Notes: generated by a model not told the origin, from the letters alone. A stretch of 26,079 nt of DNA from Nanoarchaeota archaeon (GCA_018897155.1 JAHILE010000032.1:1-26079); one strand, 5' to 3'. Positions 6,669 through 26,079 are shown, numbered from the stretch's first letter. Translations and numbers: made by a program.

Positions 6669-6720
6669 ATAATCGCAGTGTTCTTAATTTTTTAAATAAG
6701 CCAATATCTGATTCTGCACT

Positions 6721-6795
6721 GCTCCCATAGTCTAGTCCGGTCAAGGACACTGGCCTTTCAAGCCGGTAACAGGGGTTCGAATCCCCTTGGGAGCA
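6721..6795 (+). tRNA. tRNA-Glu(TTC), integration target
   Basis: Acceptor GCTCCCA (6721-6727) pairs with TGGGAGC (6788-6794), discriminator A6795. Anticodon stem CTGGC/GCCGG encloses CTTTCAA with anticodon TTC at 6757-6759. T-arm is AGGGG-TTCGAAT-CCCCT. All stems are complete, no intron, no encoded CCA. Its last 11 bases recur at 14167-14177, so the tRNA was kept intact while an element inserted at its 3' end. Confidence 0.97.
6785..6795 (+). repeat. attL: tRNA-Glu 3' end
   Basis: CCTTGGGAGCA covers the last T-stem bases, the acceptor 3' strand and the discriminator. It is the left copy of the element's direct repeat. Confidence 0.75.
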
Positions 6796-6824
6796 CTTGA
6801 TATTACTTCTAATCTCTACAGTCC

Positions 6825-6832
6825 TATAAAAG
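6825..6832 (+). promoter_or_regulatory. Integrase TATA box
   Basis: TATAAAAG centred about 27 bases before the integrase ATG, inside the element, so the integrase has its own leaderless promoter and does not depend on tRNA transcription. Confidence 0.65.
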
Positions 6833-6855
6833 GGATGAAAATGTAGGGGTTAAGT

Positions 6856-8058
6856 ATGGATGCAGATATAAGAGAGCAATTATTTGATTTAAATAAACAG
6901 ATTGCGCAAACAGAAAACACCATTAAAAAATCTTGCATGCTTGGATCAAATAAACAAATATTAGAAGGGTTTGAAAAATTCTTATACTCTCGAGGCCTGA
7001 GTATCCTTCGAATCGTAAAGTATCTTAGAACGAGCAAGACCATAGCAGAAATATATGATAAACCATTCTCAGAATATACGAAAAATGATTGCGATACTGT
7101 TATGATGCGTTTGCGGCAGTCACCGAAGAAATACAAACCAAACACGATAAACGACTTTATTGGTGGGCTTCGGATGCTGTTTAAGTATATTGACGGCGCA
7201 GACGGAAAGGCTCAAAGCCCGAGAACTGCGCATTTAATAAAAAAGGCAACACAAAACAAACTTCGGAAAGAAGACCTCATAAGCGAATCGGAACTTTTAA
7301 AAATTATCTCTGCCATGCCGAGCAAACAATATCAATGTATTATTTCTTTGTTATATGAAAGCGGAGCGCGACCATCAGAAATAAGAGCGATACAACAAAA
7401 AGACATTTCTCAAATAGAGAACGGGTATAAACTAAACATTTCTGGCAAAACAGGGCAAAGAACTATATTCTCGGTATCATCCGCGCCACTTTTGCGCGAA
7501 ATAATCAACAACAACCCATATAAAGAGGCTCAAACGCCGTTATTCTATGCGCTTGAGGATGGAAAGCCGCGCTTTTGCCAACACAAAGCATGGGAAAGCA
7601 TGTTCGGGAAAGTCACGTTTAAAGTGCTTGGTAGAAAACTTAATTTATATCGATTGAGGCATAGCAGAGCAACAACACTTATCGAGCGCGGTTTTAATAC
7701 ATCCATCGTTAAATCAGTTCTCGGACATTCGCGCGGAAGCAACACTTTAGAAAAAACCTATTTGCATCTTAATGACGGGGATTTATTAGATGCGTATTGC
7801 ACCGCAGCAGGACATGAAAACAAAGAGAAAAAACCTATAAAAAATATATTTCAGGCCAAAGTATGCCGATGCGGCAATACCATGAGCGCGCATCAAATAC
7901 TCTGCGAAAAATGCGGAACGCCGGATAAGAACGCAGAACTCTTTAAAAACGAAAAAAACGAACTCTATGAGCGCATGCTTGCGGCATTTCTTGCAATAAA
8001 GGAAACGCCCGGACTTGCAGCCGATATTGAAAAGAGATTGACGGCGCAGAAGAAGTGA
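6856..8058 (+). CDS. Tyrosine recombinase/integrase with C-terminal zinc ribbon
   Basis: Site-specific recombinase of the phage-integrase/Xer family, presumed to integrate and excise the element at tRNA-Glu. An N-terminal SAM-like core-binding domain (about residues 25-120) precedes the catalytic domain. Catalytic residues seen are Arg172 (ESGARPSEIRAI), Lys near 199 (SGKTGQR), Arg268-His269 in YRLRHSRATT (the first His of the H-x2-R box is Tyr265), His291 (VLGHSR) and nucleophile Tyr302 (LEKTYLHL). After the catalytic domain lies a four-Cys zinc ribbon (CRCGNTMSAH, CEKCGT) and a short helical tail. The gene is complete at 400 residues, so integration did not split it as in the SSV type. Confidence 0.93.
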   Translation: MDADIREQLFDLNKQIAQTENTIKKSCMLGSNKQILEGFEKFLYSRGLSILRIVKYLRTSKTIAEIYDKPFSEYTKNDCDTVMMRLRQSPKKYKPNTINDFIGGLRMLFKYIDGADGKAQSPRTAHLIKKATQNKLRKEDLISESELLKIISAMPSKQYQCIISLLYESGARPSEIRAIQQKDISQIENGYKLNISGKTGQRTIFSVSSAPLLREIINNNPYKEAQTPLFYALEDGKPRFCQHKAWESMFGKVTFKVLGRKLNLYRLRHSRATTLIERGFNTSIVKSVLGHSRGSNTLEKTYLHLNDGDLLDAYCTAAGHENKEKKPIKNIFQAKVCRCGNTMSAHQILCEKCGTPDKNAELFKNEKNELYERMLAAFLAIKETPGLAADIEKRLTAQKK

Positions 8059-8061
8059 GCT

Positions 8062-8727
8062 TTATTCTTTAAAATATTTCCAATCTTTAGGATGGTTAAT
8101 TATTGACTGGGATATTTTTGAAAAATAAGCGGATAATTTAAAGGCGAACATGGAATCGAACAGAAGAAATATGTGCGAAGTCCAGTTGCGTAATAAGTTG
8201 GCTTCTATGCTTTCTTGTTTTTCAGTAATCCCCAGGCGTTTAGCCTTTACTATTTCATCCAATATAGTGCTTGACGTAAGAATGAAAATCATGGGTGTGA
8301 GTGGGTTTGCTCGAACATTATCAACCGAGCCATTAAAAAATTCATATAACACATCGAGACTAAGGAGCTCCTCGCGAACCCATGTTTTATTTAGAAGCTC
8401 GATAAACTCATTTGAACGTAATGTTTCGAGAGTATTGCTTTTTTGTTTTTTTGAGTCATACGCTGGAAAAAAGACATCCACTAATTGCGGCAATCCCTCA
8501 AATTTAGACGAATAATTATTGCCGTCTGCCTCAAGAAGTCCATTATCAATTAGTGCCTTTATTGTTTTTTGTGCGGACTCCCGATGCAAAGGCCTTCCAG
8601 AAAGCGATGATGATGTGTACCATTTGCGTGTAATTTCTAATTTATTGCGCGGTTTATCGATACACGATAACCAAATCAGGCCAATATACCCGTCTTTCTT
8701 TAATGGTGTTAATGGTGTGTAAGTCAT
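8062..8727 (-). CDS. Probable winged-helix transcriptional regulator of the element
   Basis: I do not recognise the full-length family. With the start at 8727 the protein has 221 residues. Its first half looks like a winged helix: GYIGLIWLSCIDKPRNKLEI, then ESAQKTIKALIDNGLLEADG (recognition helix and wing). The C-terminal half is alpha-helical and hydrophobic without clear transmembrane spans, possibly a dimerisation or ligand domain. Upstream in-frame ATGs up to 8841 exist, but the TATA box at 8750-8757 read on this strand places the transcript start at the 8727 ATG, so the shorter form is preferred. It converges with the integrase gene (four bases apart) and diverges from a small ribbon-helix-helix gene, a layout typical of element control switches. 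Confidence 0.65.
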   Translation of the reverse strand: MTYTPLTPLKKDGYIGLIWLSCIDKPRNKLEITRKWYTSSSLSGRPLHRESAQKTIKALIDNGLLEADGNNYSSKFEGLPQLVDVFFPAYDSKKQKSNTLETLRSNEFIELLNKTWVREELLSLDVLYEFFNGSVDNVRANPLTPMIFILTSSTILDEIVKAKRLGITEKQESIEANLLRNWTSHIFLLFDSMFAFKLSAYFSKISQSIINHPKDWKYFKE

Positions 8728-8749
8728 AGGTATGTAATACACACACGCC

Positions 8750-8757
8750 TTTATATA
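8750..8757. promoter_or_regulatory. Symmetric TATA box shared by two divergent leaderless genes
   Basis: TTTATATA; the other strand reads TATATAAA. Its centre (8753.5) lies 26.5 bases from the ATG at 8780 on the forward strand and 26.5 bases from the ATG at 8727 on the reverse strand. Both distances match a leaderless archaeal start. A second AT run (8769-8776) is closer to the forward gene. Confidence 0.55.
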
Positions 8758-8779
8758 CTTATGCGTTCTATATATGTGT

Positions 8780-8917
8780 ATGTATTGCACAACAAGAAAA
8801 AACATAGGCATTTCACGAGAAGCGTTTGACCTTTTAAACAAAAGGAAACATCCCGGACAATCTTATTCAGGTTTAATCATTGAATTTTTTGGTGAATCTC
8901 ATGATGCAAAAAAATAA
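8780..8917 (+). CDS. Small ribbon-helix-helix protein (antitoxin/CopG-like)
   Basis: A 45-residue protein. The pattern TTRKNIGISREAFDLLNKRK then HPGQSYSGLIIEFFG is that of archaeal VapB/CopG-like ribbon-helix-helix proteins: an N-terminal beta strand, helix 1 (REAFDLLNKRK), a P-G-x-S turn, and helix 2 (SGLIIEFFG). Such proteins dimerise and bind operators, either as antitoxins or as plasmid copy-control repressors. No toxin is recognisable next to it, so a repressor acting on the shared divergent promoter is the more economical reading. An in-frame ATG at 8774 would add two residues; 8780 fits the TATA spacing. Confidence 0.65.
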   Translation: MYCTTRKNIGISREAFDLLNKRKHPGQSYSGLIIEFFGESHDAKK

Positions 8918-8996
8918 TCAAGCTGATAATTCAGCAAAGGAAAAATCCGATGCTATTAGAGAAGTAAGCGAATTGCTCCAACGCTTCGGATACTGA
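8901..8996 (+). CDS. Possible 31-residue coupled peptide
   Basis: ATG at 8901 lies within the last codons of the ribbon-helix-helix gene in another frame, and the reading frame ends at TGA 8994-8996. The peptide is polar at first (KNNQADNSAKEKS) and then has an amphipathic helix (AIREVSELLQRFGY). The overlap suggests translational coupling, but the short length makes the coding status uncertain. Confidence 0.25.
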   Translation: MMQKNNQADNSAKEKSDAIREVSELLQRFGY

Positions 8997-9039
8997 AAAA
9001 GAAGAAAGCGAGCGCATGGGCGCGCTCGAGGTGTTAGTT

Positions 9040-9354
9040 ATGGGAACTTTGTTAAAAGTAAATGTGCAAGAGCCTATTAATAGGTTCGTTCAAGTAGAGC
9101 CGTATTCAGAGAGCTTTCAAGAGCGATTTATTCAACGCCGCAATTTTGATGTTAAGCATCGTATTCTCAATTTTCTCAAAAAGTCCGGCAACGGCAAGCA
9201 CACAGTAACACACGGCACGTTCAGAAAGCTAATATCCCCAACCTACTACAAAACCGAGAGCAGGCAGGTCATAAAACTATTAGAAACAGAGGGGTTTTTG
9301 CGAGACAGCGGCGTATATATTTATATTTTAAATTCTGAGGTTGATGAAAAATGA
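9040..9354 (+). CDS. Small winged-helix protein at the head of the replication operon
   Basis: Unrecognised as a named family. ATG 9040 is preferred over 9016 because GAGGTG at 9028-9033 is a good ribosome-binding site seven bases before it. The 104-residue product has a helical core, VKHRILNFLKKSGNGKHTVT, then FRKLISPTYYKTESRQVIKL and LETEGFLRDSGVYIYILN, which has the order helix-turn-helix-wing of a winged-helix domain. A hairpin-forming sequence CGAGCGC/GCGCTCG lies just upstream. Its stop overlaps the ATG of the primase gene (ATGA), so it is translated with the replication proteins and may bind the origin or regulate the operon. Confidence 0.6.
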   Translation: MGTLLKVNVQEPINRFVQVEPYSESFQERFIQRRNFDVKHRILNFLKKSGNGKHTVTHGTFRKLISPTYYKTESRQVIKLLETEGFLRDSGVYIYILNSEVDEK

Positions 9355-10037
9355 CAGAAAAAGAAATACGAAAAGCATTAGACGTTTTGTTTGAAGCTGG
9401 CGATGTTGTTGAACTTCGCGTAATAACAAAAGGAGGATATGGCAAAATCGATTCGGGGTTTTTTGATGACTTTGACAAGCTTGCTAAATGCGCGGCAAAA
9501 TATGAAAAAATCGCAGAAGGTGTTTATGTTACGCTTAATCCCGTTATTCCTGCGCTTCTGGCACGCGCATATAATCGTGTTCAGACTGGCGCGAAGCTAA
9601 CAACATCAAAAGAGCACATTCTAAAAAGAAGATGGATTCCGATAGACATAGATGCAGACCGCCCGACTGGAATTTCAAGCAGCAACGAAGAACATGAGCT
9701 TGCGATAAAGAAAGCATACGAAATCAGAGACGGCTTAAAAGCGATGGGAATGCCCGAAGGTGTCGTTGCAGATAGCGGAAACGGCGCGCATGTTCTGATT
9801 AGAATTGACTTGCAAAACACGCCGCAAGCCGAAACGAAAATCGCAAATATCCAAAAAATGATAAAAGACAAATTCGATAACACTAATGGGCTAAAACTGG
9901 ATATGTTCGCCGATGCAAACCGAATATGGAAGCTTTACGGAACGTGGGCTTGTAAAGGCGATTCAATCCCTGCAAGACCGCATAGGATTTCTAAGCTATT
10001 GAGCGTTCCTGAAAACGTTAAAGGTGGTTCTGAATGA
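9351..10037 (+). CDS. Archaeo-eukaryotic primase (PrimPol-like) of the element
   Basis: A 228-residue primase/polymerase domain that would synthesise primers for element replication. Three motifs of the archaeo-eukaryotic primase superfamily are visible: metal-binding Asp99-x-Asp101 in RRWIPIDIDADRPTG, the S-x-H-type motif in DSGNGAHVLIRI (Ser142, His147), and a third motif in KLDMFADANRIWKLYGTWAC with a conserved Asp, Arg and the GT turn. In many archaeal plasmids this domain is fused to a helicase; here it is a separate protein whose TGA overlaps the ATG of the helicase gene, so the two probably act as a pair. Confidence 0.85.
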   Translation: MTEKEIRKALDVLFEAGDVVELRVITKGGYGKIDSGFFDDFDKLAKCAAKYEKIAEGVYVTLNPVIPALLARAYNRVQTGAKLTTSKEHILKRRWIPIDIDADRPTGISSSNEEHELAIKKAYEIRDGLKAMGMPEGVVADSGNGAHVLIRIDLQNTPQAETKIANIQKMIKDKFDNTNGLKLDMFADANRIWKLYGTWACKGDSIPARPHRISKLLSVPENVKGGSE

Positions 10038-11896
10038 GTGATTGTGAATTTTTAACTGAAGAAATGATGAACAAGCTTGCGCCTCCGATGGCGCAAGCTC
10101 CTGTCGCACCAGAACAAAAAAACACAACCAAAAGAAACGGAAAGTTACCGACACCAACAGAACTTATGGCGCGCCATCCTGATAAATTAGTAAGAGCGAA
10201 AGAAGACGTTACAACTGATGAAATTAAAGATAATTGGCGAAGAACTGCTTTAAAATTCTGTCCTTTCAATCCAGAGCAGCATACAAAAGGTTCTGTTAAT
10301 ATTTTTGAAAATATAGAAACGGGTGAAGGAGGCTTTAAATGTTTTCACGCTTCGGATAAGGATAAAACATATATTGACATTGTGAAGCTTATTGAACATA
10401 AAACACGTGATATGGAAAAACTCGTAAATGATGAAGAAAACGCACCCATCCGAAACAAAGCACTTGAGATTTTAGAAAAAGGCGAGCCGGTTGAATACTT
10501 ATTAAGCGCGGCGCAGAAGTTTCATATTGGCGATACAAATTTACTAAAAGGGCTTCTTTGTTCGGTTGCTTCTCAAAGCATCCTCAATTCAAAGGGTATA
10601 CAGCCGAAGCTTTCAGGCCGTTCTGGAGCTGGGAAAACGCATGCGTGCCAAACCATTATCTATTTAATGCCGCTTGAGAATTACCTCGAATCTTCGCTGT
10701 CGGCAAAGGCTTTATTTTATCTCGGAATTGCACCCGGAACAACTATTTTCTCTGACGATGTGGATTTTTCCGAAGGTTTAGAAGGGGTAATAAAGCGCAG
10801 CACAACTAATTTTCAGCGCGAAACAATACATAGCACAGTCGATAAACAAGGCAAACCGAGTAAATTGGTTATTCCGGCGCGTATAAATTGGTGGCTTACT
10901 TCGGTTGATGACGAACAATCAGGACAACTGATAAACAGAGAATTCACATTTGATATTGACGAATCGAAAGAACAAGATGAAGCAGTTTGCGCAAAACAAA
11001 TTCAAGATGCGGCTTTCGGGCATCCCGAATTTTATGAATCTGAGGATGTTTTGGTTTGCCGGGAAATTATCCGAGAAATTCATGCTCAAAATATGATGGT
11101 GAGAATACCTTACGCGGTTGATTTTCTTTGGTCGGACAAATCAAATAGGCGAAATTTTCCCATGTTCGTTGATATGATTCGAGCCTTTACAGTTCTGCGA
11201 TCCAAACAGCGCAAAGTCGATGATACGGGTTGCCTCATAGCAAATTTAGCCGATTTTGATGATGCGCGCGCTCTTTATTGCAGCCGGGCAGAAAACCAAT
11301 CTCTTAAACTCAATCAGCGCGAAATCAATATCTGTAATATGCTTTCGGCAGGTGATATGGATGCAAAGGAACTTCAAGAAAAAATGAATATGTCACAAAG
11401 TTATCTACATAAATTGATTCACGGCCGGAATGACCGGAAGGAAACCGGATTATTGCATAAAGTTCGTGGGCTTCATGCAGAACTCGAAAATACGGGTGAT
11501 GAAGTTTCAAGACGAACCAGATGGGTTTATTCTCTCAAAGGTTTTAAAAAATGGGATGTTTTTAACTCGGTTGTAACTTTGCCGGATGAATCCCGAATTA
11601 AATGGGAAAAAGAATTATCCCTCTGTAAAAGTGGGGAAAAGTGGGAATATGGGCATAGTTCTTCTTCTGATAGCGAAAATCTTGGGCATAGATATGGGAA
11701 TAAATCGGGCATAGAACCGATTGATAGCGAAAATCTTGGGCATACGAACGAAAATATTTCAGATGAAGAACCTTTAAAAGAAAACGACCTATGCCCAAAA
11801 ATCCTTACTATGCCCGACCTATGCCCAAATAATATCAATAACAGTAAAGGAAGTATTCCCAATTTCCCCGAAAAAGAGAAACATATAGGTGATTAA
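10034..11896 (+). CDS. Replicative helicase with zinc finger and AAA+ domain
   Basis: A 620-residue replication protein. Order: a short linker; a primase-type zinc finger at about residues 70-115 (Cys76, His83, Cys103, His105; the final Cys of related proteins is Asp here); an AAA+/superfamily 3-like ATPase with Walker A GRSGAGKTH (195-203), Walker B IFSDDVD (Asp241-Asp242) and a sensor segment INWWLTSVDDEQSG; a C-terminal helix-turn-helix (AKELQEKMNMSQSYLHKLIH); then a tail of about 100 polar, low-complexity residues containing DSENLGH twice. The zinc finger and ATPase together resemble phage/plasmid primase-helicases with the primase part encoded by the gene upstream. The tail coding DNA carries the iteron-like cluster. 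Confidence 0.85.
   Translation: MSDCEFLTEEMMNKLAPPMAQAPVAPEQKNTTKRNGKLPTPTELMARHPDKLVRAKEDVTTDEIKDNWRRTALKFCPFNPEQHTKGSVNIFENIETGEGGFKCFHASDKDKTYIDIVKLIEHKTRDMEKLVNDEENAPIRNKALEILEKGEPVEYLLSAAQKFHIGDTNLLKGLLCSVASQSILNSKGIQPKLSGRSGAGKTHACQTIIYLMPLENYLESSLSAKALFYLGIAPGTTIFSDDVDFSEGLEGVIKRSTTNFQRETIHSTVDKQGKPSKLVIPARINWWLTSVDDEQSGQLINREFTFDIDESKEQDEAVCAKQIQDAAFGHPEFYESEDVLVCREIIREIHAQNMMVRIPYAVDFLWSDKSNRRNFPMFVDMIRAFTVLRSKQRKVDDTGCLIANLADFDDARALYCSRAENQSLKLNQREINICNMLSAGDMDAKELQEKMNMSQSYLHKLIHGRNDRKETGLLHKVRGLHAELENTGDEVSRRTRWVYSLKGFKKWDVFNSVVTLPDESRIKWEKELSLCKSGEKWEYGHSSSSDSENLGHRYGNKSGIEPIDSENLGHTNENISDEEPLKENDLCPKILTMPDLCPNNINNSKGSIPNFPEKEKHIGD
11651..11826. repeat. Iteron-like cluster of seven GGGCATA boxes
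   Basis: GGGCATA occurs on the forward strand at 11651, 11684, 11707 and 11738, and as TATGCCC at 11790, 11809 and 11820. The consensus is about TTGGGCATAG. The boxes fall in all three codon positions of the helicase gene, so the repeats are not explained by protein repeats. Four direct copies face three inverted copies, as in origins or partition sites. Confidence 0.6.
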
Positions 11897-11900
11897 AAAT

Positions 11901-12098
11901 ATGCAAAAAATCTTTGTTTCAGTTTTTAAGGGATGGCCTGAGCGCGTCTATTCGCCGGAAGATATGCGGTTTTATCCGCTTGTTGCATGCTCAAAGATAG
12001 CCTTGCCGCCGAAAATGGCAGAAATTTTAATAAATTCCGGTTTTGCCGAAGCGGTGCATCTTGCCGATAACGCTTCAAAAGTGCCGATAGAGGCTTAA
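11901..12098 (+). CDS. Small hypothetical protein of the element
   Basis: A 65-residue product starting MQKIFVSVFKGWPERVYSPE; the ATG at 11901 follows AGGTGATT, a strong ribosome-binding site that overlaps the helicase stop. The upstream in-frame ATG at 11889 lacks this. The sequence shows a short beta-like start, a region with FYPLVACSKIALPPKMAEIL, and a helix INSGFAEAVHLADNA. No family recognised and no transmembrane segment. Confidence 0.5.
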   Translation: MQKIFVSVFKGWPERVYSPEDMRFYPLVACSKIALPPKMAEILINSGFAEAVHLADNASKVPIEA

Positions 12099-12115
12099 TT
12101 TCAAAGGTGTTTCAA

Positions 12116-12262
12116 ATGCAAAAACTTCAAAAATGTTCTCAATGCCGGAAACATTCGGGCGTTATGTTCGAAATGTTGAGGCCTGAAAAAAGGATATTTT
12201 GCGAGGATTGCTTTAGAAAGCAGCACTCGCAACAATACCGCGAAATGAATCGCGCCGCTTAG
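12116..12262 (+). CDS. Tiny zinc-ribbon protein
   Basis: A 48-residue protein with two C-x2-C pairs: Cys7/Cys10 (KCSQCRKH) and Cys29/Cys32 (FCEDCFRK), 18 residues apart, as in treble-clef or ribbon zinc fingers. AAGGTG at 12104-12109 is a good ribosome-binding site seven bases before the ATG. The tail KQHSQQYREMNRAA is basic and helical. Tiny zinc proteins like this are frequent in archaeal viruses and plasmids and usually bind nucleic acid or protein; the partner is unknown. Confidence 0.6.
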   Translation: MQKLQKCSQCRKHSGVMFEMLRPEKRIFCEDCFRKQHSQQYREMNRAA

Positions 12263-12275
12263 AGATGTGATTTTT

Positions 12276-12365
12276 ATGACAAAAAAACAGAAAAACAGAA
12301 AAAATAATATGTCGAACGCCTATAAAGAGCGCGGCTTGGAATTGAAAGCCGAGATGATACGATGA
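12276..12365 (+). CDS. Possible 29-residue basic peptide
   Basis: MTKKQKNRKNNMSNAYKERG then LELKAEMIR; very basic at the start. Its TGA overlaps the ATG of the next gene (ATGA), the same coupling used by the replication genes, which is the main support. Confidence 0.35.
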   Translation: MTKKQKNRKNNMSNAYKERGLELKAEMIR

Positions 12366-12652
12366 AGAAACTTGAAAAAAAGAAAAAAGAAGATTTTGAA
12401 ATTGATTCTTCCGATGAAGAACCCGAATCAAGAGCCTTTAAAACCGATGTTTATGAAATTCCGACAGCAACCGATTTCTATTTGTCGAGCATCCCGAAGA
12501 AAGCCGCATGTAGCCTAAAGTTTCAAATAGGCCGGATGCACATCAAAAAAACTATTTTCGAGCTTGAAACTGCTTTGAGCGAGCAGCGGCGCGTAGAAGG
12601 ATTATTTGCAAAATTCAGAAAGTCCGGCTTGCATCGTTGCGAACTTGGTTAA
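12362..12652 (+). CDS. Hypothetical protein of the element
   Basis: A 96-residue product with no recognised family. The first 20 residues are highly charged (KKLEKKKKEDFEIDSSDEEP), probably disordered. The rest has a core TDFYLSSIPKKAACSLKFQI and a helical C-terminal half (KKTIFELETALSEQRRVEGL, then FAKFRKSG). No signal or membrane segment. It is translationally coupled to the small basic peptide before it. Confidence 0.5.
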   Translation: MKKLEKKKKEDFEIDSSDEEPESRAFKTDVYEIPTATDFYLSSIPKKAACSLKFQIGRMHIKKTIFELETALSEQRRVEGLFAKFRKSGLHRCELG

Positions 12653-12748
12653 TTTTTACAGACATTAAAAAAGGCTTATAGCACACCATAAATAAGGCGT
12701 TAATCCCTACTGCAAACAAACGCCAAACCTTACAAATGGTGACTATTC

Positions 12749-12982
12749 ATGCTTGAGCCCACATTAAAACGCCAAACATACGAAAAACGCACTTTCTACG
12801 AACTCAGAAATGCAATACAGGCGCAACTAAAAACGCGCCCTATGACATGCCATGAATTGACGAAAGGCATACCTAAGGCGCGGCATCAAACAATTAAAGA
12901 GCATCTTTTGCACTTGCAGGCGCTCGGCGTTCTAAATTCTTTCATGCTTGAAGGTAAGAATTATTATCGATTGACGAGATGA
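12749..12982 (+). CDS. Small winged-helix DNA-binding protein
   Basis: A 77-residue protein. RTFYELRNAIQAQLKTRPMT is helix 1, CHELTKGIPKARHQTIKEHL contains helix 2 and the recognition helix, and LHLQALGVLNSFMLEGKNYY is the last helix with a beta wing, so an ArsR/MarR-like winged-helix fold is likely. GGTGACT at 12738-12744 precedes the ATG as ribosome-binding site, and a TATA-like CCATAAATAAGG lies near 12687. It probably regulates the right-hand part of the element. Confidence 0.65.
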   Translation: MLEPTLKRQTYEKRTFYELRNAIQAQLKTRPMTCHELTKGIPKARHQTIKEHLLHLQALGVLNSFMLEGKNYYRLTR

Positions 12983-12986
12983 TTTT

Positions 12987-13472
12987 ATGACAAACATAGA
13001 CGAAAAAACAGAATTGGAAAACGCGAGACTGCTAAAAAGCGAGATAACCAATGAGGTTAATCGCTGGCTTAATCCCGAAACATATCTTGAGGGAACTTTG
13101 CCGACAACATACCACACTTCAGAAGTCGACAGATGCCGCTTAGAATTTGTCATGCGATTGCATTACATCTTAAGTATGTCGAAAGAATCAAACTTTAAAG
13201 AACTGATAAAAAGGCAGACAGGAAACCTTAAATCTCAAAATAGGATTAGTGAACAAACTGCAAAGTGGCTCAAAAAGATGTACAACCCTAATGAAGTCGG
13301 AAAAGACAGAACTTATTTATGTCTTGGCTCGGCGTGTGGTCATTCAGCGAGTGCGGTGATGCGCGCCCTGCAATTAACAGATGACGAGATGAGACGATTC
13401 GAGGCGCGAGAACGTGCGAGGGATGACATCAGACACCATAGAACACCCAAGCCCGAAGATATATGCGCGTGA
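12987..13472 (+). CDS. Hypothetical protein of the element
   Basis: A 161-residue product starting four bases after the winged-helix gene, with GATGATTTT before the ATG. It is mainly helical: KTELENARLLKSEITNEVNR, a central segment CRLEFVMRLHYILSMSKESN, then SEQTAKWLKKMY, and a C-terminal very charged helix DDEMRRFEARERARDDIRHH. A short Cys/Gly/His segment (YLCLGSACGHSASA) lies near residue 112. I recognise no family. Pairing with the DNA-binding protein upstream suggests a two-gene unit. Confidence 0.5.
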   Translation: MTNIDEKTELENARLLKSEITNEVNRWLNPETYLEGTLPTTYHTSEVDRCRLEFVMRLHYILSMSKESNFKELIKRQTGNLKSQNRISEQTAKWLKKMYNPNEVGKDRTYLCLGSACGHSASAVMRALQLTDDEMRRFEARERARDDIRHHRTPKPEDICA

Positions 13473-13688
13473 GTGCAGAACGTAGAAACGTTTATTTTTC
13501 AAGTTTTTGCCCACAATATATAATATCGAAATAGTCCGAAACTCCGAAAAAGAAGTATAGAGAGAGAAAATGTATAAATGTTTTTTGCCGATACATCACG
13601 GCCATATATGTAATAGATTAATTGAATTTAGAAAATAAGAGATTGTTTCAAACCAACGCGCCATATATACAGATTCAAAGGTGTTTAT

Positions 13689-13793
13689 GTGACAAAGACG
13701 AGAACTTTATTGTTGAAGAGGCTATTTGTAGTAGGTTATCTTATCTTTGCAGTCCTATTGGGTGTTATCGCCTATAGATTGGTGTTTGTTTGA
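13689..13793 (+). CDS. Possible 34-residue single-span membrane peptide
   Basis: GTG start at 13689 preceded by AAAGGTG at 13678-13684. The product has a basic N-terminus (TKTRTLLLKR) followed by one hydrophobic span of about 21 residues (LFVVGYLIFAVLLGVIAYRL), so N-in orientation is predicted. Such peptides are common in archaeal mobile elements. Short length limits confidence. Confidence 0.4.
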   Translation: MTKTRTLLLKRLFVVGYLIFAVLLGVIAYRLVFV

Positions 13794-13807
13794 TTGGATG
13801 GTAGCCT

Positions 13808-14059
13808 ATGGTTTCCAAACGCAAGCTAAAAGAGATGCTGATGATTGCTCGGCGCATGGGCAACACGCGAGAGATGCGCCGGATAGAAAAGCTTTCAATA
13901 TATGCGAGCGAGGATTGTTCGGATGATGATGTGTTTCTTCGTCAGTCCATTATGGATGATTCTTTTATTCATCGAGAACATATTGAAAAGAAAAAGACGA
14001 AACGATTAAGAAAGCTAAATCCCAACATATCTTTTGTCACTCAAAAAACTGCTATTTAG
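13808..14059 (+). CDS. Basic hypothetical protein, last gene of the element
   Basis: An 83-residue product. The first 30 residues are strongly basic and helical (SKRKLKEMLMIARRMGNTRE), the middle is acidic (SEDCSDDDVF), and the end is basic again (EKKKTKRLRKLNPN). No family recognised. GGATGGT lies just before the ATG. It ends 107 bases before the right attachment repeat. Confidence 0.4.
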   Translation: MVSKRKLKEMLMIARRMGNTREMRRIEKLSIYASEDCSDDDVFLRQSIMDDSFIHREHIEKKKTKRLRKLNPNISFVTQKTAI

Positions 14060-14166
14060 TGAAAAGAGAATAAAAGAAAATCGCTATACTGCGACCATAC
14101 ATAAAAAGTATATAAATCTGCGAATTCTTAATAAATGTAGAGAGATTAGAACATATCAAGACTTCT

Positions 14167-14177
14167 CCTTGGGAGCA
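14167..14177 (+). repeat. attR: displaced tRNA-Glu 3' end
   Basis: CCTTGGGAGCA is identical to the tRNA-Glu 3' end at 6785-6795 in the same orientation. With three more bases to the left 13 of 14 match. Nothing else tRNA-like surrounds it, as expected for the leftover of the original tRNA end. Confidence 0.75.
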
Positions 14178-14574: not shown

Positions 14575-16878
14575 TTATAAAATATGTTCCCGTTCCACCA
14601 ATCCCTTAATCCTCTTCGCTTTTTCCTCGCCGATGCCTTCAACTTTCTGCAAGCTTTCTTCGCTCGCATTGACAATACGCTTGATTGTCCTAAATCTAGA
14701 AAGAAGCCGCTTTGCAAGCGCAATATTTATTGAAGGAAATCCCGAAATAATGACTTCCTGCTCCTCATTTTCTGACATCGCATGCTTGACGCCTTTGTGC
14801 TGGACACTGCGGTCTAAATTGAGCTGCTCGCGCTTTGCAAGCCCTGCAATCACTTCAGCAGTTTCCTGTATTGACTTTGTCCAGATTATCGGAATGCGAA
14901 AATCAATTGTGATTGAATTAAGCGCTCCCTTAATCGCATTCTGATGAATATTTCTTGTGCTGTAAAGATTCTCGCCCTCAATCACAAGCACAGGCCTTGA
15001 GAAATTCGCCGAAAGCTCCTTGAGTTGCGTAAAAAGCCTGCCGTCAATTATTGACTCAAGAAAATCAGGAACTGTCTTTCGCTCGATACAGACTCTATCA
15101 GAAATCAAAAAATCTCCGACTTCAAGCTGCTTGGTCACGATTTCAACGTCCATATCAACAAGCTCTTTCAATAATTTTGTTTCGCGGATATCTGTAAAAA
15201 TGATCGCTTTATCTTCTTTTTTCGGCGTGGATAATGCGTTTGGCAGCAATAAATTAGAAGTTACTGCCGCACCTGCAAAAGCGCCAAGCGACATCTGCCC
15301 CCCAGCTTGTTCGTCATCAGAAATCTCAATCCCTTCGCTTTTTTCTGCAACGCCCTTATCATTCTTTACATCAATTCCGCCCGCCTCTTTCATTCCCGCA
15401 AGGACTGAGCGCATTTTCTTCTCTCTGCTTTTTGCCACCCAGGTATAAGCTTGATCCATAGTGCCTTTTGCTATTAAAACGTAAACCTCGCCAGCCTTCA
15501 TCCTGCCGGTTCTTCCGCGGCGCTGGATATTCCTTATTTCTGAAGGCACTGCTTCGTAGAAAACAATCAAATCAACCTGCGGAATGTCCAAGCCCTCCTC
15601 CCCAATTGAGGTAGATACAAGCGTGTTATACATCCCATCTCTGAAGTTCTGCAAAGTCTCGAGCTGTTTTTTCTGTGTATTGCCGTTTCTCTGACCGATG
15701 AATTTCACGGGCTTTATCTTATCAGATGCGATTTTGTCGATTATCTTTTCAACAGTGCTCACATACTGGGAAAATATTATAGCTTTTTTGTCAGGAGAAT
15801 TCGCAAGCTTTTCTTCAATAAGCTCTTTCAGCGCCTCAAGCTTTGGATGCTCAAGATTCTGGTCTTTGGCCCAGTCAAGAATCTGCATTGCAGTTTTAAA
15901 ATCATCGTCAGCAAGAATCGATTGGACTGATTTTGTTTTTGTATCTGCGCGAATTTTAGCCACATACTCGCGAAGCTGGCCAAGCCCCTGCGTCTGCAGA
16001 AGCTCGATGCAGTAGTTGAGTTTTATTGCGGCGGAGCATGCTGAAATCGCCTGATAAAGAACAGGATCATGCGTCTCCTGAGCTTTGCGCATTATTTCGC
16101 CCTGCGCCGCAAGAAGGATTCCTTTCCCGGGCCGCTTGCCATAAACAAGGTGTAGTTTTCGAAGATGCTCAATGCGCTTTTCAAACGCCGCCTCAAGCCG
16201 GTTTTTTATTCTTGCAAAATCCTCGGGCAAATCAATCTCAAGCTTGTTAATCTTGATTTCATGGACATACTGTGAAACATCCCGGTCTGTTTCTGTACGC
16301 ACCTCAACATTCTCAATAAAAAGATTTCCGCAGATGCTGCCGATTTTTTCCGCATTGCCTCCGGGCGATGCAGTAAGTCCGAGAATCAGCGGGTTTTTTG
16401 CGCGCTCAGTATATTTTCTTGCAATGAATGTGTATGCGTAGTCGCCGATGGTTCTGTGGGCTTCATCAAATACTATCAGGGAGAAATCATTCAAGTCAAC
16501 AGCATCGGTAATTATGTCGTTCTGGACCACTTGCGGCGTTGCAAAAATCACTGGTGCAGATGTCCAAAGTGTTTTGCGCTCATCTGGCGAGTGTGCGCCA
16601 GTAATAACCTGGAATCCGCTTGCGATAAGGACTTTTTCAAAGCTTGTCCTATGCTGGTCAACAAGCGGCTTTGTCGGTGCAAGGATTAAGACGCGCGAGT
16701 CCTGAAAAGCCTGCAGCCGCATTGCCGCAACTCCAATCGCAATCATTGTTTTCCCTATTCCTGTCGGAAGCACAACAAGGGAGTTTTTGCGCGACGCCGA
16801 GGCTATTATTGTCTCCTGAAAGAGCCTGCGCTCTGCGACATTTTCTTTTATGAGGGGATGAGTAAGAAAATCAGACAT
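14575..16878 (-). CDS. hef: Hef: XPF-family helicase-nuclease
   Basis: Acts on stalled replication forks and branched DNA in archaea, related to FANCM and XPF. The 767 residues match the length of known Hef proteins. The N-terminal superfamily 2 helicase has Walker A PTGIGKT near residue 37, the DEAH box (VFDEAHRTIGDYAY) near 138, motif III LTASPGG, and motif VI QRRGRTGR near 455. After a low-complexity linker comes the ERCC4-type nuclease: VGDFLISDRV with ERK at about 599-601 and D four residues on (the GDx-ERKx3D motif), plus DGRLFTQ. Two helix-hairpin-helix units end the protein (NIALAKRLLSRF and VEGIGEEKAKRIKG). Both activities look intact. The start is supported by a reverse-strand TATA box at 16901-16907, 26 bases upstream. 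Confidence 0.96.
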   Translation of the reverse strand: MSDFLTHPLIKENVAERRLFQETIIASASRKNSLVVLPTGIGKTMIAIGVAAMRLQAFQDSRVLILAPTKPLVDQHRTSFEKVLIASGFQVITGAHSPDERKTLWTSAPVIFATPQVVQNDIITDAVDLNDFSLIVFDEAHRTIGDYAYTFIARKYTERAKNPLILGLTASPGGNAEKIGSICGNLFIENVEVRTETDRDVSQYVHEIKINKLEIDLPEDFARIKNRLEAAFEKRIEHLRKLHLVYGKRPGKGILLAAQGEIMRKAQETHDPVLYQAISACSAAIKLNYCIELLQTQGLGQLREYVAKIRADTKTKSVQSILADDDFKTAMQILDWAKDQNLEHPKLEALKELIEEKLANSPDKKAIIFSQYVSTVEKIIDKIASDKIKPVKFIGQRNGNTQKKQLETLQNFRDGMYNTLVSTSIGEEGLDIPQVDLIVFYEAVPSEIRNIQRRGRTGRMKAGEVYVLIAKGTMDQAYTWVAKSREKKMRSVLAGMKEAGGIDVKNDKGVAEKSEGIEISDDEQAGGQMSLGAFAGAAVTSNLLLPNALSTPKKEDKAIIFTDIRETKLLKELVDMDVEIVTKQLEVGDFLISDRVCIERKTVPDFLESIIDGRLFTQLKELSANFSRPVLVIEGENLYSTRNIHQNAIKGALNSITIDFRIPIIWTKSIQETAEVIAGLAKREQLNLDRSVQHKGVKHAMSENEEQEVIISGFPSINIALAKRLLSRFRTIKRIVNASEESLQKVEGIGEEKAKRIKGLVEREHIL

Positions 16879-18303: not shown

Positions 18304-18840
18304 ATGAAAATTCTCATAACTGATTTGGAAAACGTCCTGACGAACGATGCTGGCCTTGAAAGCGATGCTATGGATTTTCTTTCAGGCGCACATGAGAAAT
18401 TCTTCATCGTGCTTCTCACAAACCTGCCTGCAAAAAATACACAAGAACGCGTAAAATCCCTCGGGATAACAGGAGTTATAGATTTTGTAATATCTGCGGC
18501 AGATTATGAAATGGCAAAACCGGATTCAAGAATGATAAATGTTCTTCTTGCAATACTTAACGCCGAAACCAAGAAATTCGGAAAAAACGACATGATTCTT
18601 ATAGGTGACAAGCCCGACCGCGACATAAAGCTCGCAAACAATGCGGGCGTCCAATCCATACGCGTAAGGCGTGGAAAACATGCAGCACAAGAGCCGGAAT
18701 ATGCTGATGAAATCGCCAAAGTTGAGGTAAAAAGCCTTGCGGATCTCATACCTATTCTTGGAATAACTATTAAAAAAGAAGAACCGATGGGCGAAAAAAA
18801 GGCGCGAAAAAAACCGCAACACAAAAAGAGCGTAAAATAA
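18304..18840 (+). CDS. HAD-superfamily hydrolase
   Basis: A 178-residue phosphatase-like protein. Motif I is DLENVLT (second acidic residue is Glu instead of the usual Asp), motif II is LLTN, motif III is the Lys in MAKPDSRM, and motif IV is IGDKPDRDIKLANNAG. These are the four catalytic motifs in order, with a small helical cap after motif I. HAD enzymes usually hydrolyse small phosphorylated metabolites; the change in motif I could weaken phosphatase activity. The C-terminal 25 residues are a very basic tail (GEKKARKKPQHKKSVK), which might bind nucleic acid. GGTGAT at 18293-18298 is the ribosome-binding site. Two tandem hairpins follow the stop. Confidence 0.85.
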   Translation: MKILITDLENVLTNDAGLESDAMDFLSGAHEKFFIVLLTNLPAKNTQERVKSLGITGVIDFVISAADYEMAKPDSRMINVLLAILNAETKKFGKNDMILIGDKPDRDIKLANNAGVQSIRVRRGKHAAQEPEYADEIAKVEVKSLADLIPILGITIKKEEPMGEKKARKKPQHKKSVK

Positions 18841-23944: not shown

Positions 23945-24607
23945 TTAGCCCTTCTTCTCAACAAGAACCTTTAATAGTGCTTCAATGTTTTTGTCGGTCT
24001 TTTCCATTCTCTTCTCCATAGCGCCTACAACCGAAAACATGCCTTGAGAAATTTTATCGTACTTTTCATCCATGTGCTTAAAGCTTGCCTGCGTATTCGC
24101 ATCCAACTGCTTAAAGCTTGCCTGCGTATTCGCATCCAACTGCTTAAAGCTTGCCTGCGTATTCGCATCCAAACGATTGAAACTTGATTGTGTATTCGCA
24201 TCCAACTGCTTAAAGCTTGCCTGCGTATTCGCATCCAAACGATTAAGATATTTAATTCCTGTAGAAAATCCCTGCGCCATCTCAGCTACAGAATCACTGT
24301 ATTTTTCCTCGAAGGTTGTCTGTTTAATCGTTCCTTGCGCAAGCTGTGTTTCTTTTATATCTTCTACATCTATAAGCGGTGCTGCTTCGGGATTCTTCAT
24401 ATTAATAAGCTTCTTGAATTGGCTAATGGCTTCATCATTTCCCTTGCAATGAATTAGAACAGTGCCGTCTTTAATGTTCTCGGCAAACCCTGCAAGCTTT
24501 AGCTTTCTTGCGACTTTTGCAGCATATTGCCTGAAGCCGACGCTCTGAACATCGCCTGAAACAATTAATTCAACTTCCTTTACAGTTTTACCGTCTAAAG
24601 ACGCCAT
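23945..24607 (-). CDS. Acylphosphatase domain fused to an 11-residue-repeat coiled coil
   Basis: A 220-residue protein. The N-terminal 90 residues are an acylphosphatase: VELIVSGDVQSVGFRQYAAK with the catalytic Arg in GFR, then LAGFAENIKDGTVLIHCKGN with the catalytic Asn in EN; both are present, so hydrolysis of acyl phosphates is possible. A linker (TTFEEKYSDSVAEMAQGF) leads to five 11-residue repeats LDANTQASFKQ (two of them variant, e.g. LDANTQSSFNR), then a charged helix ending KNIEALLKVLVEKKG. Eleven-residue repeats favour right-handed coiled coils. Acylphosphatases are usually stand-alone proteins of about 90 residues, so the fusion is unusual. The promoter region is flanked by inverted repeats. 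Confidence 0.85.
   Translation of the reverse strand: MASLDGKTVKEVELIVSGDVQSVGFRQYAAKVARKLKLAGFAENIKDGTVLIHCKGNDEAISQFKKLINMKNPEAAPLIDVEDIKETQLAQGTIKQTTFEEKYSDSVAEMAQGFSTGIKYLNRLDANTQASFKQLDANTQSSFNRLDANTQASFKQLDANTQASFKQLDANTQASFKHMDEKYDKISQGMFSVVGAMEKRMEKTDKNIEALLKVLVEKKG
24074..24238 (-). repeat. Five tandem 33-base coding repeats
   Basis: Units at 24074, 24107, 24140, 24173 and 24206, each 33 bases (11 codons). Four are nearly identical in DNA; the unit at 24173 has diverged. The repeats keep the reading frame, which points to recent expansion of the coiled coil by slippage or recombination. Confidence 0.9.
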
Positions 24608-25223: not shown

Positions 25224-26079
25224 TCAACCCACCAACTCCCCGTTAAACGCCTTCTGCATAAGCGTATTGAATAGGTTTTCGATTTCCTGCTTTGATGATT
25301 TTTGACTGGCGCGCATCGCCTCGACTTTTTCAACGATTGAAGCGAATTTTTGCTGAAGTTCGATAGGTGGGGAAATAATTTCGAATAATTCTAATTCCCT
25401 AGGGCTTACTCTTGGTAGATTTGCTCCAACAGAACGATCTGTTGCTAATTGAATATAATACGGTTGTTTTAGAATATACGCGATAAAATACTTGTTAGAT
25501 TTTTCTTTAATGGGTCTAATTGGTACAATATCGGTACTACAAATTCCTTCAAAATCAGGCAACGCTATTTTGTTTAGATAGGGTCTTAATTTTCCATACA
25601 AAACACAATCTTCATCGAAAGAGAATTTGTTGCTTTTTAAATCGCCGGCAGAAACAGATATAATCTTTATTATTCTTCCCGATTCTGATTCCAAATGCTC
25701 CAATCCAACATATTTATCTCCTTTCTTGATTTTATCAGAAGTAATAGAATTTCTTTCAATAAGTGCCACATCATTAAGTTTTACAATGGGGAACTTTTTA
25801 CTATTACTAACAGGATCCCCAAACATCTCCATAAAAACCGCCTGCAAAAACTTGCTTGTGAGTTCGTCGGATTCGGTACGCATCTGCTTAGTTTGCTCTG
25901 CGCGTTCGAGGATTGAAACGATTTTTTGCTGAGTTGAGAGTGGTGGGAGAGGGATTTTAATATGTTGATAGTTAGATAAATAATACCTTTTATGTGTGGT
26001 GGAATCAACATTTATTGTTTGCATCAGCCAGAAAACAAACTTTAAATCAATATCTTTAGTTTTGGGAGTTAACAATTTC
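25224..26079 (-). CDS. hsdS: Type I restriction-modification specificity subunit HsdS (partial, 5' end beyond the window)
   Basis: DNA-recognition subunit of a type I restriction enzyme. Visible are the end of target-recognition domain 1, the central conserved helix (IPLPPLSTQQKIVSILERAE, then LQAVFMEMFGDP), a full domain 2 starting FPIVKLNDVALIERNSITSD with YGKLRPYLNKIALPDFEGIC and ANLPRVSPRELE, and the distal conserved helix (IISPPIELQQKFASIVEKVE, ending LMQKAFNGELVG). These two Q-rich helices set the spacing between half sites. The coding frame is open to the window edge, and the ATG at 26075 is internal to the first domain, so the N-terminus lies outside. Genes for HsdM and HsdR should be sought to the right. 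Confidence 0.9.
   Translation of the reverse strand, partial: KLLTPKTKDIDLKFVFWLMQTINVDSTTHKRYYLSNYQHIKIPLPPLSTQQKIVSILERAEQTKQMRTESDELTSKFLQAVFMEMFGDPVSNSKKFPIVKLNDVALIERNSITSDKIKKGDKYVGLEHLESESGRIIKIISVSAGDLKSNKFSFDEDCVLYGKLRPYLNKIALPDFEGICSTDIVPIRPIKEKSNKYFIAYILKQPYYIQLATDRSVGANLPRVSPRELELFEIISPPIELQQKFASIVEKVEAMRASQKSSKQEIENLFNTLMQKAFNGELVG

Follow-up and report, generated by a model that had tools for sequence, protein, structure and literature searches.

What occupies the 7.4 kb between a tRNA-Glu gene and the gene for a Hef nuclease-helicase in an uncultured DPANN archaeon? The window analysed here (26,079 nt) makes up all of contig C32; the genome totals 1.43 Mb in 62 contigs and is 96% complete. 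Host genes border the interval, RpoN and the tRNA on its left and Hef on its right. By a chain of matches the host falls in the same genus as the MAG LFW-46, a member of lineage LFWA-IV of host-dependent DPANN archaea, p__EX4484-52 (PMC8561730), which confirms the DPANN-type host of the original prediction. We consider it probable, with fairly high confidence, that positions 6796 to 14177 are an integrative plasmid-like element with a scheme of integration, excision and replication. Its enzymes are akin to proteins already known from archaeal plasmids and viruses, brought together in a new combination, in a sparsely sampled lineage. The suggestion that this may be a new family therefore holds for the combination and the host lineage, but not for the integrase and replication proteins, which are of known kinds. 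The window also carries, both on the minus strand, an acylphosphatase gene after which a unit like QASFKQLDANT is tandemly repeated (23945-24607) and, at the contig end, a type I restriction specificity subunit, HsdS (25224-26075).

Gene content and the nature of the element

The gene nearest the tRNA, beginning 60 nt past it (6856-8058, plus strand), encodes a tyrosine integrase of 400 aa with a C-terminal CxC..CxxC zinc ribbon (PF00589, 1.6e-15; phrog_1 integrase, 6.6e-28). As had been predicted, it is complete, with the catalytic residues R172, K198, R268 and Y302 intact, and because the gene lies whole within the element it is not an SSV-type suicidal integrase split by integration. In the databases, its nearest matches are the integrases of the pleomorphic viruses GacPV1 and ThalV2 (25-27% identity over 330 aa). 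Related integrases follow tRNA genes elsewhere: in LFW-46 one comes directly after a tRNA-Leu with an intron, in the window's own genome (contig C25) one follows a tRNA-Leu that is interrupted, and in genome G033 one follows tRNA-Gln. At locus L022 (minus strand, ~6709-7105), the tRNA-Leu preceding an integrase has its T-arm broken by ~120 nt of inserted sequence whose ends are inverted repeats, and it probably also has an anticodon intron; the LFW-46 copy is without the T-arm insert, and ARAGORN misses both copies.

The predicted primase and helicase are confirmed by motifs and homologies and, for the former, by fold. The first is an AEP-superfamily prim-pol of 228 aa (9351-10037, plus strand) with DxD (D99, D101), sxH (SGNGAH, H147) and third acidic (D184) motifs, all conserved across the eight sequences aligned. 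Its AF2 model (pLDDT 89.8) has the AEP fold, with Foldseek matches to the CAPP prim-pol 7p9j (E 3.2e-4), RepB' 3h20 and PriS. It is 94% identical to the prim-pol of C53, a second element in the same genome, and 48% identical to an ORF of pMETHO01, and several IMG/VR contigs carry relatives. The second is a P-loop replicative helicase of 620 aa (10034-11896, plus strand; Walker A GRSGAGKT) that matches plasmid Rep and virus proteins: a 122-aa N-terminal part in common with the C53 element is followed by a pME2001-type helicase domain (139-518), which is homologous to the Rep of pMTBMA4/pMTB1 (24% over 330-370 aa, E 4e-8 to 8e-7). pME2001 replicates autonomously (PMC8609365). A single-sequence fold of the helicase reached pLDDT 36 and gave no usable model.

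The helicase is also 45% identical to a protein of G021, a genome of the same order, and to IMG/VR virus contigs. In G021 (contig C13; L061, 117-3143) this helicase type is fused to a DnaG-type CHC2/Toprim primase, and L061 is likely another plasmid or virus; beside the fusion gene lies one resembling a ParB-like/MT-A70 methylase fusion. Two IMG/VR contigs with a related helicase domain (L096/L097) are 99.99% identical over 14 kb, and inspection of one of them by eye picked out terminase-, portal- and capsid-like proteins; by gene content they appear to be a tailed virus, in which the helicase domain (45%) forms part of a primase-helicase. Since the helicase type is found in both pME2001-type plasmids and a tailed virus, it does not on its own separate plasmid from virus. 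Modular exchange is suggested by these arrangements: the helicase type beside a separate AEP prim-pol here, fused to DnaG/Toprim in the same-order genome, with another N-terminal part in the tailed virus, and, in C53, the same prim-pol with another helicase. Overall, database searches found kin of the helicase in pME2001-type plasmids and in IMG/VR contigs including the tailed virus, and kin of the prim-pol in pMETHO01 and IMG/VR contigs; single prim-pol or helicase queries and alignment A2 found no relatives in the viral contigs, nor did a single helicase query in the genome contigs.

Most of the other genes are small. Between the integrase and the prim-pol lie a divergent gene on the minus strand (8062-8727, ATG at 8727, open frame to 8841), which has no family match and by eye is possibly a winged-helix regulator; a 47-aa VapB/AbrB-like DNA-binding protein of antitoxin type (8774-8917, plus strand), a weak match to PF02697 (E 4.1e-5; 24.7 bits, cut-off 27.9); and a protein of 112 aa, probably winged-helix (9016-9354, plus strand; 28% over 88 aa to L021:15549-15286, E 5.9e-6), a relative of which also precedes the C53 prim-pol. 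Beyond the prim-pol, all on the plus strand, are a 69-aa ORF overlapping the helicase end (11889-12098), a putative treble-clef zinc finger of 51 aa (12107-12262; weak, PF23477 at 2.5e-4, below cut-off), a 96-aa ORF without family match (12362-12652), a 77-aa ORF that is winged-helix-like by eye, also without family match (12749-12982), a 161-aa ORF of no significant family (12987-13472) and, near the right end, an 83-aa ORF without family match (13808-14059). The stretch from 13473 to 13807 is long and AT-rich with no clear gene, and is a candidate origin. Among the ten element ORFs scanned, no structural or conjugation family was recognised, in agreement with the original prediction, nor was a relaxase or other conjugation gene of the kind that defines an integrative conjugative element; defence genes were also looked for, and none was found.

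One could envision instead a virus satellite or phage-inducible element that integrates and replicates by itself but relies for packaging on a helper virus that infects the DPANN host. The small size, the element's own integrase and replication genes, the lack of structural genes and the many small genes of no family would all suit such a satellite, as would the use of the same helicase type by a tailed virus and the presence in the same genome of the larger related C53. However, no packaging, capsid-size or terminase-like gene was recognised in the element, no helper virus was identified and C53 itself has no recognised capsid gene, and we regard this explanation as unlikely. Less probable still is a remnant provirus that has lost its structural genes. 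Integrases nearest to those of pleomorphic viruses and prim-pol relatives in IMG/VR contigs could be read in this way, but the main genes are all open, tightly packed and overlapping, both ends are intact and no degraded genes were seen. Moreover, tblastn found no similarity to an RCR Rep or to VP3/VP4, the proteins by which Pleolipoviridae are recognised (GacPV1 VP3/VP4 against the window, none at E 0.01). A plasmid-like element, as originally predicted, is thus the best reading of the gene content, with autonomous replication suggested by genes of which the helicase type also serves a tailed virus.

Element ends and attachment sites

The integration target is tRNA-Glu(TTC) (6721-6796, plus strand; ARAGORN; Rfam RF00005 at 6721-6795, 68.5 bits). 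An exact copy of the predicted 11 bases of its 3' end, CCTTGGGAGCA, which do start at 6785 (attL, 6785-6795), recurs in direct orientation at 14167-14177 (attR, the right end of the element), and a search of both strands found only these two copies in the window. One repeat copy plus the intervening DNA gives an element of 7,382 bp, whose left end supplies the tRNA 3' end, which stays intact. The chance of such a match had been predicted to be low: in 7.4 kb of Markov-shuffled DNA, finding again any of the 11-mers contained in the final 41 nt of the tRNA has p ~0.015, and CCTTGGGAGCA itself recurred in 0 of 400 Markov shuffles; nevertheless, an 11-bp repeat is short and not decisive when taken alone.

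The ends are better fixed because an inverted motif, absent from the original prediction and unique to this element in the 1.43-Mb genome, flanks both repeats. A genome motif count and alignment define a left arm (6796-6819), which on the minus strand reads GTAGAGATTAGAAGTAATATCAAG, and a right arm (14137-14160, plus strand), GTAGAGAGATTAGAACATATCAAG. The motif GAGATTAGAA-N(1-4)-ATATCAAG, a pattern picked after being seen, occurs exactly twice in the genome (control, 0), at 6796-6816 (minus) and 14142-14160 (plus), so that each repeat has one copy immediately on its inner side and the copies face in opposite directions, and the gapped match between the 60-nt inner flanks has p ~0.0004 against shuffles. 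That 14167-14177 is a chance match and the true right end lies elsewhere, for which the shortness of the repeat might speak, is very improbable, given that no longer or better-placed match to tRNA-Glu lies between 14177 and the window end (the next best is 10 nt at 16193), that the arms abut exactly these two copies and are absent elsewhere in the genome, and that the host gene Hef starts 400 nt beyond. Of the 41 genomes searched with Hef, 40 gave a match, weak in some.

With the arm motifs inverted inside the repeats, rejoining the ends yields an attP that is nearly palindromic about the repeat; in silico it spans ~57 bp and is centred on TTG, and attB, from the sequences, has no arms. An equal or better dyad occurs at a fraction of 0.0008 of positions in the window, 0.0001 in C53, 0.0003 in GacPV1 and 0.00006 in ThalV2, figures uncorrected for the +-20 nt search, and in neither GacPV1 nor ThalV2 does any dyad of the genome surpass that at the junction of the record. 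In viruses with unrelated integrases the same fraction is 0.047 (AvPV1, junction not palindromic) and 0.004 (GahPV1, borderline). Taken alone, the palindrome score of the window junction is modest. The arms are probably extra binding sites for the integrase; excerpts of PMC8371274 state that archaeal integration sites need nucleotides beyond the shared core, and contain no description of arms of this kind. We tentatively propose, as a possibility that falls somewhat short of an even chance, that an archaeal clade of integrases with a C-terminal zinc-ribbon extension, found in DPANN elements and pleomorphic viruses of Archaeoglobi, acts on an extended palindromic attP in which inverted arms ~18 bp on each side of the crossover, absent in attB and split on integration, set the direction of the reaction. 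Such an att architecture could give a site-specific recombination tool for archaea.

A search of contigs found no circle, no attP junction contig (sought with the arm motif) and no exact empty site for the window element. The nearest comparison is contig 32 of LFW-46, which has a matching block of ribosomal-protein, RNA polymerase, AlaX-like, RpoN and tRNA-Glu genes with no integrase behind. To the right of its tRNA-Glu the sequence is rearranged, with no similarity to the inner flank of the element or to 14178 onward, and LFW-46 has no clear Hef match. A related genome lacking the element was thus found as regards the left block and the tRNA, but the locus is not an exact empty site because the sequence past the tRNA is unrelated to the right flank of the window.

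A sister insertion in the same genome

C53 (L021; own genome, G000) is an element of 18.5 kb with two tyrosine recombinases and a surface-type protein of 1702 aa. The core TCCCAAAGA stands at both ends (133-141 and 18662-18670), and inside the cores is a 32-nt inverted repeat (81%). Both ends overlap other contigs by 141 nt: the start of C53 coincides with the end of contig C56, the overlap finishing exactly at the end of the core, and the end of C53 coincides with the start of contig C28, the overlap beginning 3 nt past the core. Homologues of the genes at the ends of C56 and C28 are adjacent in LFW-46, in the same order and orientation, and C53 is therefore an insertion. The fixed 141-nt overlaps suggest branches of an assembly graph with k = 141, and their position at the att cores suggests a mix of empty and filled cells; no intact contig with the empty site was found in the own genome, and neither C53 nor contig C13 of G021 is circular.

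C53 resembles the window element in its integrase (46% identity), its prim-pol and its att palindrome, and the DNA is 82.6% identical over 1,055 nt, ending inside the helicase gene, past which the C53 helicase is of another type. It differs in its greater size, its extra recombinase, its surface-type protein and its site, a terminator-like hairpin after a surface-protein gene instead of a tRNA. The literature searched has little on the mobile elements of DPANN archaea, and this genome offers a related pair, one of them a shown insertion. Support for the original prediction of an integrated element in tRNA-Glu comes from the repeat in direct orientation and the inverted arm motifs, from the tRNA-Glu context of LFW-46, which is without the element, from the clean sister insertion and from the adjacent integrase.

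Proposed cycle and comparison with known systems

We envision that the non-suicidal integrase, whose gene is read from the left end, carries out recombination between attP and the tRNA-Glu 3' end, and that the tRNA is made whole again by the 11-bp copy of its end that the element brings. The circular form would have the core between the two inverted arms as the near-palindrome that attB lacks; splitting of the arms between attL and attR may favour the integrated state. The excised circle would replicate with the AEP prim-pol and the pME2001-type helicase that it encodes; the two genes overlap and probably share expression with a gene for a small DNA-binding protein ahead of them, and such small proteins may control excision and copy number. 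With no capsid or conjugation gene recognised, the element would have to spread by passive or helper-dependent transfer.

The plasmids pME2001/pMTBMA4 and pMTB1 share with the element the P-loop helicase domain of their large protein and the lack of recognised conjugation genes, but they are free plasmids of 4.4-4.9 kb with no integrase or separate prim-pol annotated, and the N-terminal part of the large protein differs from that of the window helicase. GacPV1 and ThalV2, pleomorphic viruses of Archaeoglobi, have the related integrase and a palindromic junction; unlike the element, they carry VP3/VP4 and a rolling-circle Rep, without match in the window. Insertion at tRNA 3' ends is common to SSV, pT26-2, SNJ2 and the iMGEs of Thaumarchaeota; excerpts of PMC8371274 give att sites of only 8-13 bp for integrated archaeal elements, and a review confines the SNJ2-type integrase family to Halobacteria. 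In contrast to these systems, the window element combines a classical, unsplit zinc-ribbon integrase with a replicon of prim-pol and pME2001-type helicase, in a DPANN host.
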